64,000 nt of DNA from Acidobacteriota bacterium. GTDB lineage: Bacteria; Acidobacteriota; Vicinamibacteria; Vicinamibacterales; UBA8438. Shown here in pieces: positions 1 to 64,000 of this stretch. The translations under genes were made by a program, and so were the position numbers. The DNA is taken from NCBI GenBank assembly GCA_009861545.1, contig VXME01000160.1:62001-126000 (forward strand), read 5' to 3'. The notes beneath the pieces are model-generated. The model was not told the DNA's origin, ran no database searches, and saw only the letters and a list, made by a program, of their open reading frames with translations. Within the stretch, counting starts at the first letter, position 1, and each line of letters begins with the position of its first letter.

Positions 1-393
1 CTCGTTCCAGTCGAGCACCGACCATTCGAAGCGGCCGCAACCCCGCTCGACCGCAATGTGCGCCAGGTGCGCCAGCAGGCGCCGCCCGATGCCGTGGCCG
101 CGATGCGGCGGCCGGACATACAGATCCTCCAGGTAGAGGCCGGGGCGCCCGACGAAGGTGGAAAAGCTCTGGAAGAACAACGCGAACCCGACCGCCTCGT
201 CACCGATCCGTGCGATCACCGCCTCGGCGCACGGGCGCTCCCCGAAGAGCGCCCGCTCGATGTCCGCCTCGGTCGCCACCACTTGCGCGGACATCCGCTC
301 GTAGTCGGCCAGTTCCCGGATCAACGCCAGGATGAGCGGCACGTCGGCGGGCGAGGCGGCGGAGATCGACAGGGGGGCCGGAGCGGAAGCCAT
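1..393 (-). CDS. GNAT family N-acetyltransferase (C-terminus cut by window edge)
   Basis: The minus-strand frame opens with ATG at 393 and is still open at base 1, giving 131 visible residues. It transfers an acetyl group from acetyl-CoA to an amine, and the pattern is closest to the diamine/spermidine N1-acetyltransferase branch. The acetyl-CoA-binding motif A is visible as DLYVRPPHRGHGIGRRLL (R-x-x-G-x-G/A), preceded by the strand-rich GFALFFQSFSTF segment usual in this branch. The substrate cannot be read from the sequence. The end of the protein lies outside the window. Confidence 0.85.
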   Translation of the reverse strand, partial: MASAPAPLSISAASPADVPLILALIRELADYERMSAQVVATEADIERALFGERPCAEAVIARIGDEAVGFALFFQSFSTFVGRPGLYLEDLYVRPPHRGHGIGRRLLAHLAHIAVERGCGRFEWSVLDWNE

Positions 394-58282: not shown

Positions 58283-60007
58283 TCAATCCGCCGCGCCGAC
58301 GTAACCCGCCTTCTCCAGGTGCAGGATGATCCGCTGCGCCGCCTCGTCGGGCGTCAGCGCGGTGGTGTCGATCGCCAGCTCGGCGTCCGCCGGCGCCTCG
58401 TAGGGATCGGATATCCCGGTGAACTCCTTGATGATGCCGGCCCGCGCCTTGGCGTACAGGCCCTTGCGGTCGCGCTGCTCGCACACGTCGAGCGGCGTGT
58501 CGACGTGCACCAGCACGAAGCCGCCGGCCGGCTCGATCATCGCGCGCACATCCTTGCGCACCGCGTCGTACGGCGCGATGGGAGCGCAGACGGCAATGCC
58601 GCCGTTCCTGGTGATCTCCGACGCCACGTAGCCGATGCGCCGGATGTTGATGTCGCGGTGCTCTTTCGAGAAGCCCAGCTCGCTCGACAGGTTCTTCCGC
58701 ACCAGATCGCCGTCGAGCAGCGTCACCGGCCGCCCGCCGAACTCCAGGAACTTGACCAGGAGCGCATTGGCGATGGTCGATTTCCCCGATCCCGACAACC
58801 CGGTGAAGAAGACCGTGAACCCCTGCCGCTCCCGCGGCGGGTGGCTGCGCCGCAACTCCTGGGCGACCTCGGGGAAGGTGAACCAGGACGGGATGTCCTT
58901 CCCGCCGGCGAGACGCTGCCGCAGCTCGGTGCCCGAGAGGTTCAGGGTGCGCGTCCCCTCCGGAACCTCGTCGACCGGCATGTACGAATCGCGGTCCTCG
59001 ACGTAGACCATCATCCTGAACGGGACCATCGTCACCCCGAGCTCGGCCTCGTGCTCTCGCAGCAGTTCCTGTGCGTCGTACGGGCCGTAGAACGGATTGC
59101 CCGCCGAGTCGCTGCCCGGGCCGGCGTGGTCGCGCCCGACGATGAGGTGGGAACAGCCGTGGTTCTTGCGGATGATCGCGTGCCAGACCGCCTCGCGCGG
59201 ACCGCCCATGCGCATCGCCAGCGGCAGCAACGACAGCAGCGCCGTCCTGGACGGATAGCGCTGCAGCAACGCCTGGTAGCACCGCACGCGCGTGTAGTGA
59301 TCCACGTCACCGGGCTTGGTCAGGCCGACCACCGGGTGGATCAGCAGGCTCGCCTCGACCTCCTTGGCCGCCCGCAGGGTCAGCTCCTGGTGCGCCCGGT
59401 GCATCGGGTTGCGCGTCTGGAAGGCGACCACCCTGGTCCAGCCCAGCTTGGCGAACTCCGCGCGCAGCTCGGCCGGGGTATGGCGCAGCAGGCGGTAGTC
59501 GTAGTGGGTGACCGGCTGCACGGCGGTCACCCGGCCGCCGAGGCAGCAGGGCTGCGTCCGGTCGAGCAGGTGGGCCACGCCCGGATGTTCGGCGTTGGTC
59601 GTGCCGAAGACCGCCGCCGCCTCCGCGGGCCGATCCGGCTGCCAGATGTCCTCGACGTCGAGGACGGCCAGCATGACGCCCTCTTCGTCGCGCAACGCCA
59701 GGCGCGCTCCGGGCGACAGCGACGACGCCAGCGATTCCGGAACGTCGAGCGTGATCGGTACCGGCCACAGGGTCCCGTCGTCGAGGCGCATCTGCGCGCA
59801 CACGCGGTCGTAGTCGCGCTGCCGCAGAAACCCGTGGAGCGGGGAGAACCCGCCGCTGACGAGCAGCTCCAGGTCGCACAGTTGGCGCGGGGAGAGATCG
59901 AGAGACGGCCAGTCGCGTGATTCCGCCTTCAGCTCGGCGCACCGATCCTCGCTGGCGAAGAGGTTGACGAGTGCCCCGCCGTGCGGGGCGATCAGATGGT
60001 CGGACAA
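58283..60007 (-). CDS. Bifunctional sulfate adenylyltransferase / APS kinase
   Basis: A 574-aa fusion enzyme that converts sulfate plus ATP to APS and then to PAPS. The ATP-sulfurylase part has QTRNPMHRAH (197-206) and IVGRDHAGPG (289-298). The C-terminal APS kinase has P-loop GLSGSGKST (403-411), LLDGDLVRKNLSSELGFSKE and ISDPYEAP. The start TTG 60007 is chosen because homologues begin at the equivalent of SDHLIAPHGG; an in-frame ATG at 60094 would add 29 residues of unlike composition. It is divergent from the cys operon and co-transcribed with DUF4202. Confidence 0.92.
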   Translation of the reverse strand: MSDHLIAPHGGALVNLFASEDRCAELKAESRDWPSLDLSPRQLCDLELLVSGGFSPLHGFLRQRDYDRVCAQMRLDDGTLWPVPITLDVPESLASSLSPGARLALRDEEGVMLAVLDVEDIWQPDRPAEAAAVFGTTNAEHPGVAHLLDRTQPCCLGGRVTAVQPVTHYDYRLLRHTPAELRAEFAKLGWTRVVAFQTRNPMHRAHQELTLRAAKEVEASLLIHPVVGLTKPGDVDHYTRVRCYQALLQRYPSRTALLSLLPLAMRMGGPREAVWHAIIRKNHGCSHLIVGRDHAGPGSDSAGNPFYGPYDAQELLREHEAELGVTMVPFRMMVYVEDRDSYMPVDEVPEGTRTLNLSGTELRQRLAGGKDIPSWFTFPEVAQELRRSHPPRERQGFTVFFTGLSGSGKSTIANALLVKFLEFGGRPVTLLDGDLVRKNLSSELGFSKEHRDINIRRIGYVASEITRNGGIAVCAPIAPYDAVRKDVRAMIEPAGGFVLVHVDTPLDVCEQRDRKGLYAKARAGIIKEFTGISDPYEAPADAELAIDTTALTPDEAAQRIILHLEKAGYVGAAD

Positions 60008-60109
60008 GACGAGTGCTTCCTCTCTACTGGCAGGTTTGCGAACGTAGCGAACCTCGTACCCTAGCACGCGACTGCGGTCCTCTCCCGCGCGCATGGTATC
60101 GAGCGTCGC

Positions 60110-60132
60110 CCCGCGATCACCCCGATCGCGGG
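60110..60132. promoter_or_regulatory. Perfect inverted repeat in the divergent sulfur-gene spacer
   Basis: Arms CCCGCGATC and GATCGCGGG (nine bases, five-base loop). It lies between the SAT/APS-kinase gene and the rightward promoter (TTGACG at 60162, TAAAAT at 60187). It could be an operator controlling both directions or a hairpin in the leftward 5' leader. Confidence 0.45.
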
Positions 60133-60161
60133 AGCCTGGGCGAACCTTGTCCGCCACTCCC

Positions 60162-60192
60162 TTGACGGTCGACCACCCCGGCAGGCTAAAAT
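60162..60192 (+). promoter_or_regulatory. Promoter of the cys operon
   Basis: A -35-like TTGACG (60162-60167) and a -10-like TAAAAT (60187-60192) with a 19-base spacer. The expected start near 60199 lies just upstream of the leader-peptide ATG at 60212. Confidence 0.5.
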
Positions 60193-60211
60193 GGCGAGCG
60201 TACGCACCGCG

Positions 60212-60316
60212 ATGACGATCCCGACGAACGTCTGCGCCTGTTGTTGCTGTTGTACGGGGACCCGAGGGCTCCCCCGCGCCGACGGTCGTACCGCGTTGCA
60301 CGCCTACGTAGACTGA
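60212..60316 (+). CDS. Cysteine-rich leader peptide of a transcription attenuator (34 aa)
   Basis: A short ORF in the 5' leader of the cys operon: residues 1-14 are MTIPTNVCACCCCC and the peptide ends ALHAYVD. The Cys codons lie at 60233-60253: TGC, an Ala codon, then TGT TGT TGC TGT TGT, five in a row. A GGGG...CCCC hairpin (60256-60275) immediately follows, and a strong intrinsic terminator at 60344-60376 lies downstream, all before tauE and cysH. Ribosome stalling at Cys codons when Cys-tRNA is scarce should prevent termination. Polycysteine leader ORFs with this role are known from mycobacteria; no sequence homology is claimed. No clear Shine-Dalgarno is seen, consistent with a short or leaderless start. 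Confidence 0.8.
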   Translation: MTIPTNVCACCCCCTGTRGLPRADGRTALHAYVD

Positions 60317-60343
60317 GACTAGAGCACGACGCACGACACCGAG

Positions 60344-60376
60344 GCCCGGGGGGCAAGCGCCCTCCGGGCTTTTTTT
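60344..60376 (+). terminator. Intrinsic terminator of the cysteine attenuator
   Basis: An 11-base stem (GCCCGGGGGGC with GCCCTCCGGGC, one G-U pair) with loop AAGC, followed by seven T residues (60370-60376). It lies 27 bases after the leader stop and 29 bases before the tauE start. Its 5' arm contains GGGGGG (60348-60353), which could instead pair with CTCCCCC (60269-60275) as an antiterminator. Confidence 0.85.
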
Positions 60377-60405
60377 GTGCCCTTGAATCGTGAGTGGAAC
60401 CCGAC

Positions 60406-61164
60406 GTGACCGACTTCGCCCCGACCGCCATTGGATTCGCTGCCGGCCTGCTCGTCGGCGCCACCTCGACCGGCGGCGGCGCCCTGCTGACGCCGGCGCT
60501 GATTCTGTTCGCCCGTGTGCCCCCTTCGATCGCCATCGGTTCGGATGTGTTGGTCGCCAGTGGCATGAAGCTGTTCGGCGGCGGATTCTACGCCTTGCGT
60601 CGCGAGGTGCATTGGTCGACCGTCGGACGCCTGGCCGCCGGATCGATTCCGGGTGCGCTGGTCGGGATGATGATCCTCAACCGCATGCCGCTCGACCGGT
60701 TGGAGACCTGGCTGACCCACGCGCTGGGCGTCGTGCTCGCGGCCGCCGGCGCGGCGCTCCTGCTGCGTCTGACCCTGGCCGGCCGACCACGGCCGACCGG
60801 GACGCCGGCGACGGCGGTGACGGCGGGCCTCGGCTTCGTGACCGGCGTCCTGGTGAGCATGACCAGCGTCGGCAGCGGCTCGCTGCTTCTCTGCGTGCTG
60901 GCGCTCGGGTACCCGCTGCGGGCGCGAGAGACCGTGGGAACCGATCTGGTCCATGCCCTCGCGCTCTCGGCCGTGGCGACGCTGGGCCACGCGAGCGCGG
61001 GGCGGGTAGACGTAGCGCTGGCCGGGACGGTGCTTGCCGGCGCGATACCGGGCGTGCTGACCGGGGCGCGGCTGGCGACCGGAGTCGAGGAGCGGTCGTT
61101 GCGCGCCGCCCTGGCCGTCGTGCTCGTCGCCATCGGCGTGCCGCTGGCCGTGTTTGGAATGTAG
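60406..61164 (+). CDS. tauE: TauE/SafE family sulfite/anion exporter
   Basis: A 252-aa, eight-helix TauE/SafE protein with the duplicated family motif: IGFAAGLLVGATSTGGGALL near the start and TAGLGFVTGVLVSMTSVGSG in the second half. It exports sulfite or organosulfonate-derived anions across the inner membrane, or imports sulfate-like anions in some members. GTG 60406 is preferred (GGAA about seven bases upstream); GTG 60394 would add four residues. First structural gene after the attenuator. Confidence 0.88.
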   Translation: MTDFAPTAIGFAAGLLVGATSTGGGALLTPALILFARVPPSIAIGSDVLVASGMKLFGGGFYALRREVHWSTVGRLAAGSIPGALVGMMILNRMPLDRLETWLTHALGVVLAAAGAALLLRLTLAGRPRPTGTPATAVTAGLGFVTGVLVSMTSVGSGSLLLCVLALGYPLRARETVGTDLVHALALSAVATLGHASAGRVDVALAGTVLAGAIPGVLTGARLATGVEERSLRAALAVVLVAIGVPLAVFGM

Positions 61165-61201
61165 CCGGGCTTCGCATCGCCCAAGAAGAAGGAGACGCCT
61201 C

Positions 61202-61939
61202 GTGACCGTCGACGTCAGCCTGGACCGGACTCCGGATCGGTTGGAAGCAGAATTCGCAGGCTGCGCTGCGGAGCTCGAGAGCCGGCCCGCCGGCGACGTG
61301 CTGCGCTGGGCGGTGGAACGCTACGCCGACCGGCTGACGTTCGCCACCGGGTTCGGACCCGAGGGTTGCGTCCTGATCGATCTGATCGGGCGCCAGCGGC
61401 TGCCCATCGATCTGTTCACCCTCGACACCGGCCTGTTCTTCGAGGAGACCTACGCCCTGTGGCGCGGCCTGGAGAAGCGGTACGATATCGAGATCCGCCG
61501 TATCTCACCGGAGCTGGCCCTGGAGGAGCAGGCGCTCGCGCACGGCGAACGCCTGTGGGAACGGGATCCCGACCGTTGCTGCGCGATCCGCAAGGTGGCG
61601 CCGCTCGCGGCCGAGCTGGCCCGCGTCGACGCCTGGATCACCGCCATCCGGCGCGACCAGACGCCGCAGCGCGCCGACGCGCGCGCCATCGAGTGGGATC
61701 CGAAGTTCGGAATAGCGAAGATCAATCCGCTGGTCGGCTGGACGAAGCACGACGTCTGGCGCCACATCCTGGAACACGACGTGCCGTACAATCCGCTGCA
61801 TGATCTGGGCTACCCGAGCATCGGCTGCCTCCCCTGCACGAGCCCGGTACGGCCTGGAGAGGACGACCGCGCGGGCCGCTGGCGGCACAGTGTGAAGACG
61901 GAGTGCGGGCTGCACGGCCCGGCTGTGGCCGCGCGCTGA
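61202..61939 (+). CDS. cysH: Assimilatory APS (adenylylsulfate) reductase, CysH family
   Basis: A 245-aa CysH-type reductase. C126-C127 and C209-C212 are the four [4Fe-4S] ligands seen in APS reductases, and the catalytic Cys is C235 in KTECGLH. Substrate motifs LTFATGFGPEGCVLIDLI and ITAIRRDQTPQRADARAIEW are clear. The iron-sulfur Cys pattern predicts use of APS rather than PAPS as the main donor, with thioredoxin as reductant. GTG 61202 is supported by AGGAG eight bases upstream. Confidence 0.93.
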   Translation: MTVDVSLDRTPDRLEAEFAGCAAELESRPAGDVLRWAVERYADRLTFATGFGPEGCVLIDLIGRQRLPIDLFTLDTGLFFEETYALWRGLEKRYDIEIRRISPELALEEQALAHGERLWERDPDRCCAIRKVAPLAAELARVDAWITAIRRDQTPQRADARAIEWDPKFGIAKINPLVGWTKHDVWRHILEHDVPYNPLHDLGYPSIGCLPCTSPVRPGEDDRAGRWRHSVKTECGLHGPAVAAR

Positions 61940-61971
61940 GCAACGGCCCGCGCAACAGGAGCGATGGCAGG

Positions 61972-62592
61972 ATGCACCTCTACCCCGCCTTTCTGAAGCT
62001 CGACGGCCGGCGGGTGGTGGTGGTCGGGGCCGGCCCCGTCGCGGCGTCGAAGCTGCGCGGACTGCTCGACGCGGGGGCCGACGTTACCGTCGTCGCGCCG
62101 GCGTGGGTCGCCGAGGCTGAAGCGGAAGCAGAGAACGTGACGCCGGTCGAGCGCGAGTTCCGGCCGTCCGACCTCGACGGCGCGTGGCTGGTGGTGGCGG
62201 CGGCGACGCCGGCGGTCAACCGCGAGGTGGCGCTGGCGGCCGAGGCGCGGCGCGTGTTCGTCAACGCGGTCGACGATCCGCCGAACGCCAGCCTCTACCT
62301 GGGCGGCGTCGTGCGGCGTGCGGGCGTGACCTTCGCCATCTCGACCGACGGGCGCGCCCCGGCCCTGGCCGGGCTGCTGCGCGAAGGGATCGACGCGGTC
62401 CTCCCCGAGGAGGAGATCGAGCGCTGGCTGCCCGAGGCCGTGCGAATGCGCGAGCGGTGGCGAGCCGGGCAGGTACCCATGGAAGCGCGGCGACCGGAAC
62501 TGCTGGAGGCGCTCGTCAGGCTCTATTCCCGCGACAGCGACGACGATTGCAGGGCGTCCGATACCGTGACGCCGGGAACCTCGACGTCATGA
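61972..62592 (+). CDS. Precorrin-2 dehydrogenase / sirohydrochlorin ferrochelatase
   Basis: A 206-aa Met8/CysG-N-type protein with the NAD-binding [20 protein letters not shown] and the conserved [20 protein letters not shown], then [20 protein letters not shown]. It oxidises precorrin-2 and may insert iron to make siroheme, the cofactor of sulfite reductase. It overlaps cobA by ATGA, so the two siroheme activities are translated together. Confidence 0.92.
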
Positions 62593-63422
62593 CGACCGGC
62601 AAGAACGCACCGGCGCCGCACGGCGGCAGGCTCGGATTCGTGTCGCTCGTCGGGGCCGGTCCCGGAGACCCGGAGCTGCTGACGCTGAAGGCGGCGCGGC
62701 GCCTCGCCGAGGCGGACCTGCTGCTGTACGACGGGCTGGTTCCGGCGGACGTCACGGCCCTGGCGACGCGGGCGCAGCACTTTTCCGTCAGCAAGCGGGC
62801 CGGACGGCCCTCGGTGGACCAGGACACGATCCACCAGGTGATGATCCGCGGCGCACGGCGCGGCAAGCGTGTGGTGCGGCTGAAGAACGGCGACCCGTTT
62901 CTGCTCGGGCGGGGTGGCGAGGAAGCGCTGGCGCTTCGGGCGGCCGGCATTCCCTTCGAGGTGGTTCCCGGCGTCACGGCCGCGGTCGCGGCGCCTGCAT
63001 TGGCGGGCATTCCGGTGACGCACCGGGGACTCGCCGCCGGGTTCACGGTGGTCTCCGGCCATGCGGCTGGAGCATTCGAGCCCATCCTGGGCGCGATGGC
63101 CCCCGGATCGATGACGGTGATCGTCCTCATGGGCCTGCGGAATCGAGCGCGCATCGCCGCGACGCTGCTCGACCACGGCTGGAACGCGCATACGCCGGCA
63201 GCCGTCGCGCTGGCCGCTTCGACACCGCGGATGCACCTCTGGACCGGAAGCCTCGGCGAGCTCGGAACCGCCCGGTTCGAAGCCCCGGCAGACGCACCCG
63301 GCACCATCGTGGTCGGCGAGGTGGCGAACCTGAGCGCGCTCATCGGCGGGACACGGACGCCGGCGCGAACCGACGCGCCGCGGACTCTCGACGGCCCACG
63401 CGTGCAGGCAAGGAATGTGTGA
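62589..63422 (+). CDS. cobA: Uroporphyrinogen-III C-methyltransferase
   Basis: A 277-aa SUMT. Motifs include [60 protein letters not shown] and [14 protein letters not shown]. It methylates uroporphyrinogen III at C2 and C7 to precorrin-2, which the preceding enzyme then uses. In CysG these domains are fused; here they are separate, overlapping genes. The next gene starts one base after its stop. Confidence 0.93.
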
Positions 63423-63423
63423 C

Positions 63424-64000
63424 ATGACCTGGAAGGAAGCACTCGCCGACCGTATTCCGGCCGCGCTGGCGGCCGAGATAGACACGTTCGAGCGCCAGAT
63501 CGCTCTCCGGCGGCAGGACAAGATCGACGAGAAGGTGTTCGCCGAGACGCGCCTGCGCCGCGGCGTCTACGGGCAGCGCTACGACAACGGACAGCGCAAC
63601 GACGGCACCGGCCCGAAGACGCTGCCGTATCCGTCGGACGGCCTCACCAAGGGACCGGAGACGGTCTGGGACGCGCCCGGGATGCAGCGGATCAAGATCC
63701 CGATGGGCCGGCTGACGCCCGACCAGATGGACACGCTGGCGGACCTCGCCGCGGAGTACAGCGACGGCGTCTGCCACGTGACGACGCGCCAGGACATCCA
63801 GCTCCACTTCGTCCATCTCGACGACACGCCGGACCTGATGCGCCGCCTCGCGGCGGTCGGCATCACGACCCGCGAGGCGTGCGGCAACACCGTCCGCAAC
63901 GTCACCGCCTGCCCGCTGGCCGGGGTCTGCCGCGACGAGACCTTCGACGTCACCCCGCACGCGGAGGCGTGCATGCGCTTCCTGCTCGGGCACCCGGACG
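63424..64000 (+). CDS. Nitrite/sulfite reductase, N-terminal part (cut by window edge)
   Basis: The frame opens at ATG 63424 and is still open at base 64000, giving 192 visible residues. The ferredoxin-like half is present: [20 protein letters not shown] and [20 protein letters not shown]. The siroheme and [4Fe-4S] ligands lie beyond the window. Its position after cysH and the siroheme genes makes assimilatory sulfite reductase the likely role, although nitrite reductase cannot be excluded. Confidence 0.88.

Follow-up and report, generated by a model that had tools for sequence, protein, structure and literature searches.

A cysteine-codon leader with competing antiterminator and terminator helices as a probable attenuator of sulfate-assimilation genes in Acidobacteria

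Ribosome-mediated attenuators of the trp and his type, known from proteobacteria, combine a leader ORF rich in codons for the end product with protector, antiterminator and terminator helices. For the cys operons of mycobacteria, leaders carrying a run of Cys codons but no terminator were predicted in 2005 (Seliverstov et al.; PMC1262725). That polycysteine leaders act in M. smegmatis was demonstrated by experiment, as stated in papers that cite Canestrari et al. (2020), among them PMC9031893 and PMC13236596. In Rhodobacterales, the uORFC-8-2 motif, located before cysS, comprises two Cys codons and an intrinsic terminator (PMC8632094). Regarding Acidobacteria, attenuators have been predicted in bulk, with almost none being assigned a function (PMC2965389). 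Here, we analysed a window of 64,000 nucleotides (the whole stretch of DNA under study), in which a short ORF with Cys codons and an intrinsic terminator precede genes for sulfate assimilation. With high confidence, we interpret this element as a cysteine-responsive, ribosome-mediated transcription attenuator of the trp type, sensing the charging of Cys-tRNA.

Anatomy of the leader region and its downstream genes

All elements of the leader lie on the plus strand. A promoter-like element occupies 60162-60192, with TTGACG at 60162-60167 as the -35 hexamer, a spacer of 19 nt and TAAAAT at 60187-60192 as the -10 hexamer, and the start of transcription is predicted near 60199. A simple promoter scan did not list this element, the spacer of which falls outside the spacing range of the scan. 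The leader ORF at 60212-60316 (ATG at 60212, TAG at 60314-60316), read directly, encodes a peptide of 34 aa, MTIPTNVCACCCCCTGTRGLPRADGRTALHAYVD, and ORFs with Cys codons occur at the equivalent place in the 90 best hits of the covariance model described below. Its start codon is located 19 nt after the -10 element and lacks a Shine-Dalgarno sequence; the regulatory Cys codons TGC GCC TGT TGT TGC TGT TGT (Cys-Ala-Cys5) fill 60233-60253, and the stop codon lies about 20 codons beyond this run. The pattern TGY-NNN-(TGY)5 occurs only twice in the genome of 6.35 Mb, the second occurrence being within a run of TGC codons.

Directly 3' of the Cys codons, a hairpin at 60256-60274 (arm A, 60256-60262; arm B, 60267-60274) folds with -11.6 kcal/mol. 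The antiterminator B:C, identified by folding and covariation, extends over 60268-60354, with its 5' strand at about 60268-60300 and its 3' strand at about 60327-60354, and has as its core the pairing of CUCCCCC (60269-60275) with GGGGGG (60348-60353). The intrinsic terminator C:D, recognised by scan, fold and covariation, spans 60341-60376 and consists of 14 pairs at 60341-60372 and seven T's at 60370-60376; its stability (-28.8 kcal/mol for 60341-60372, z -5.0) was equalled in none of 200 shuffles. An earlier sequence-only reading of this region had proposed the promoter-like element, a 34-codon ORF with five consecutive Cys codons, a GGGG/CCCC hairpin right after them and a placement before tauE-cysH-siroheme-sulfite reductase, all of which were recovered in our analysis. 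The same reading had placed CTCCCCC and GGGGGG correctly, their pairing now appearing as the core of a longer helix, and the seven T's of its terminator also stood, while the stem, given there as 11 bases, has 14 pairs by scan and fold.

Downstream, the gene order assigned with Pfam and NCBIfam is tauE-cysH-cysG(N)-cobA-sulfite reductase, on the plus strand throughout. The first gene, encoding a TauE-like sulfite exporter (60394-61164; PF01925, 2.3e-40), is predicted to be the first controlled by the leader. It is followed by cysH, for a (P)APS reductase (61154-61939, exact start uncertain; PF01507; NF002537, 7.4e-75), a precorrin-2 dehydrogenase of the cysG N-terminal type for siroheme synthesis (61903-62592, exact start uncertain; TIGR01470, 1.1e-37), a uroporphyrinogen-III methyltransferase of the cobA/cysG C-terminal type (62625-63422, start approximate; TIGR01469, 4.5e-73) and a nitrite/sulfite reductase cut by the end of the window (63415-64000; PF03460, 1.1e-20). 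A sat-cysC fusion gene (58283-60093, minus strand) departs divergently from the same intergenic region, and no Cys leader was seen for it.

Conservation in related genomes

TauE homologues were gathered without reference to the leader, and their loci were read on the correct strand. A short ORF with a Cys run was present upstream of 13 out of 13 homologues adjoining cysH or cysD, against 0 out of 16 other TauE homologues, a split that by our own arithmetic would arise by random assignment about once in 7e7. In one genome, a second tauE homologue (75% identical), located apart from cys genes, has no leader and represents a natural control.

An independent search for the codon pattern Cys-Ala-Cys4 was conducted in 162 genomes of the same order, and among the 54 places examined 18 precede sulfur genes. 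A T-run of at least five was found 121-151 nt downstream at 15 of these 18 places, compared with 1 of the 36 others (Fisher p 1.4e-9). The Cys pattern alone was rejected as evidence, since most matches were chance TGC repeats in long frames, with neither a terminator nor a sulfur gene.

A covariance model was further built from 21 leaders and searched against genomes of Acidobacteria. About 100 of the 162 genomes of the order were matched at E<=1e-5, and 148 at E<=0.1 when bare terminators are included; beyond this order, matches were obtained in further orders of the class, which is probably Vicinamibacteria, and in a sparse scatter of genomes from the rest of the phylum, the two full-length matches outside the class both lying before cysH. 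Close reading of the 90 best hits showed that every one has an open frame with two or more Cys codons and that 84 have three or more in a row, a feature partly selected for by a model trained on Cys-run leaders; by contrast, the model includes neither the reading frame nor the start codon nor the downstream sulfur genes. In these hits the start codon usually stands 5-8 codons before the Cys run, the number of Cys codons ranges from 2 to 7, Cys-Ala-Cys-Cys is common at the beginning of the run, and four loci have no more than two or three Cys codons, which are not adjacent. The distance from the Cys run to the terminator is conserved (mostly 75-94 nt), and the peptide around the run is poorly conserved between subfamilies.

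By direct match, 82 of the 90 best hits precede tauE-cysH, cysH-cysG, cysG-cobA, cysD or PF03601 transporter genes, and cysteine synthase lies downstream in two more, bringing the sulfur-gene total to 84; of the remaining six, five lie upstream of genes of other kinds (RimK-like ATP-grasp, Porin_O_P, TlpA-like) and the sixth is located at the end of a contig. Downstream genes for sulfate/sulfite assimilation and cysteine synthase are those expected of a trp-type attenuator with cysteine as its end product. Aligning the relatives, as the sequence-only reading had proposed, revealed conserved Cys-codon runs together with terminator/antiterminator pairs that covary, and both the Cys codons and the terminator persist, with loss of either not being seen. 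These comparisons support the cysteine-attenuator interpretation of that reading, in which stalling and the response to cysteine are inferred steps.

The promoter-like element also recurs upstream of the leaders of relatives, most of which carry TTGACN-16..19-TANNNT at the equivalent position (mean hexamer match of 7.98 out of 12, against 5.5 in shuffles). This conservation argues against a start of transcription downstream of 60376. Moreover, since the start codon follows the -10 element by only 7-10 nt, the leader mRNA is probably leaderless in most relatives.

Some further observations concern codon usage and the genes found behind the leaders. Cys codons in leaders are mostly TGT (287 of 420; TGT:TGC 287:133), in contrast to the GC-rich genes of the window, where TGC prevails (52 of 64; 12:52); this preference could strengthen stalling or avoid pairing. 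At three loci (L166, L167 and L174) a Cys leader precedes a RimK-like ATP-grasp gene, followed in L174 by a luciferase-like monooxygenase, which suggests an unrecognised role of the RimK-like gene in sulfur metabolism. Two additional Cys leaders (L175 and L177) lie upstream of genes for an outer-membrane protein of the Porin_O_P type and for a protein resembling TlpA/AhpC-TSA. Finally, a leader subfamily of seven loci, with its own bulged antiterminator core, precedes transporters of PF03601 (YeiH-like) and points to a role of these proteins in sulfur transport.

Competing helices, proposed mechanism and alternatives

The leader holds three mutually exclusive helices with shared strands, namely the post-Cys hairpin A:B, the antiterminator B:C and the terminator C:D, and all three covary. 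Native A:B arms paired at -10.9 kcal/mol, compared with -9.3 kcal/mol when arms were swapped (z about -7). For B:C, the duplex energy was -34.3 kcal/mol in native leaders and -29.4 kcal/mol with partners taken from different leaders (z -11.7; 0 of 20000 permutations), and treating 13 groups of related leaders as the units gave -34.6 and -28.4 kcal/mol (0 of 200000 permutations), bearing in mind that permutations and shuffles remove shared ancestry only in part.

In the 90-row covariance-model alignment, fitted to the terminator alone, the antiterminator showed 82 cells of two-sided change, against 49 in shuffles and at most 35 when slid, and a covariation of 0.195 compared with 0.142 after shuffling. 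The column pair 67:157 is C-G in 47 sequences and U-A in 30, and changes in column 157 are matched within the terminator as well, by its partner column 188 (A-U in 41, G-C in 37). The terminator helix itself is paired at 98% and shows 81 two-sided changes across the 90 sequences, and in the slid controls the signal dropped for antiterminator and terminator helices alike. Outer antiterminator pairs (columns 54-56 with 166-168) keep one fixed register in about half of the sequences, because register and bulges differ among subfamilies. RNAalifold returned no consensus structure for the B-to-C segment, where the variable middle was misaligned by MAFFT.

When the leader of the window was folded with arm A hidden and D withheld, the antiterminator was the predicted minimum-energy fold (-41.6 kcal/mol, z -2.5), and the terminator returned once D was added; in this modelled fold, the behaviour is the switching geometry of classical attenuation. 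As in trp-type attenuators, the locus presents a leader ORF with codons for the end product, a terminator between the leader and the first gene, an antiterminator with a protector hairpin, and genes of the pathway downstream.

The anatomy, the conservation, the association with sulfur genes and the covariation of the three helices carry the attenuator reading. For its operation, we infer that transcription would begin near 60199 and that a ribosome would translate the leader ORF. If Cys-tRNA were scarce, the ribosome would stall in the Cys run at 60233-60253, and arm A (60256-60262) would be hidden, since, on the model of trp-type attenuators, the footprint of a ribosome paused at the later Cys codons reaches about a dozen bases past its A-site codon. 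Arm B (from 60268) and the 5' arm of the terminator (to 60354) would then join as the antiterminator, allowing the polymerase to proceed into tauE-cysH-cysG-cobA-sir. With plentiful cysteine, or with the leader untranslated, A would pair with B, the terminator C:D would form and transcription would stop at the T-run (60370-60376).

The same helices bear on an alternative that we consider improbable, by which the position of the ribosome governs access to the tauE start or keeps the mRNA translated, termination being secondary. In favour of such a switch, polycysteine leaders of M. smegmatis are described as regulators of downstream-gene translation (PMC9031893; also PMC13236596), and the leader is predicted to be leaderless in most relatives, as in mycobacteria. 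Against it, nearly all members have a strong covarying terminator with a T-run separating the leader from the gene, and the covarying antiterminator competes with this terminator, whereas mycobacterial leaders have no conserved terminator (PMC1262725).

Marginally less probable again is that the Cys-rich peptide senses another signal, such as a metal, sulfide or the oxidative state, through nascent-peptide arrest. Clusters of Cys are able to bind metals, and the frequent Cys-Ala-Cys-Cys at the start of the run would suit this role; nevertheless, nearly all recognised downstream genes belong to sulfate/sulfite assimilation, sulfur transport or cysteine synthesis, and a peptide poorly conserved between subfamilies, with 2 to 7 Cys, is what would be expected if charged tRNA were being read, and not of a peptide causing arrest. 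A chance Cys run before a terminator serving something else, with no regulation, is hardly credible. In its favour, the complete window leader taken by itself is no more stable than shuffled sequences (z -1.4). The comparative sequence data, however, already contradict it: the element is conserved and covaries across about 100 genomes and is strictly tied to cys genes. In addition, no plus-strand gene ends at the leader, sat-cysC being divergent.

Returning to cysteine-responsive attenuation, we regard it as likely, with less confidence than for the locus itself, that Cys-codon leaders with competing antiterminator and terminator, mostly leaderless, are the general means by which cysteine feeds back on the sulfur-assimilation regulon in an entire, mostly uncultured class of Acidobacteria, with several leaders per genome in some. 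If so, the regulon would embrace cysH, cysD, siroheme and sulfite reductase genes, transporters and cysteine synthase.

Relation to known attenuators

No match at the gathering threshold of Rfam was obtained in the whole window, with only chance-level matches for 60100-60450, and NCBIfam gave no match for the leader. A cysteine attenuator in Acidobacteria was likewise not found in the searched literature, of incomplete coverage, so that the earlier remark on the lack of a described example in this type of bacterium was borne out within the searchable papers; a family that combines an intrinsic terminator with a covarying antiterminator ahead of sulfate-assimilation operons in this phylum seems not to have been described. 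The element would offer an Acidobacteria attenuator whose signal, mechanism and controlled genes are readable from sequence, and would extend Cys-codon sensing to sulfate-assimilation operons, in another phylum and with a complete terminator/antiterminator pair. Furthermore, the covariance model can serve as a search tool that flags sulfur genes in the genomes of uncultured bacteria, including some whose role is unknown.

Mycobacterial polycysteine leaders share with this element a short ORF with a Cys run before sulfur or cysteine operons, and they are often leaderless, as is predicted for most relatives here. They have no conserved terminator, are described as acting on translation and carry the Cys run near the stop codon, whereas the leader of Acidobacteria, in a different phylum, has an early Cys run, an intrinsic terminator and a covarying antiterminator; because of its terminator, it is not of the mycobacterial type. 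The uORFC-8-2 motif is similar in that an intrinsic terminator follows a uORF containing Cys codons, and attenuation sensing Cys-tRNA has been proposed for it (PMC8632094). According to its published description, this motif has two tandem Cys codons at 14-15 and occurs only before cysS and only in Rhodobacterales (PMC8632094), in contrast to the 2-7 Cys codons near the start, the sulfate-assimilation operons and the other lineage of the element reported here, which by genes, lineage and Cys-codon position is not a uORFC-8-2 member. With the trp/his-type attenuators of proteobacteria it has in common a leader ORF rich in end-product codons and three mutually exclusive helices, differing from them in the sensing of cysteine, in lineage, in sequence and in the probably leaderless translation of most of its members.
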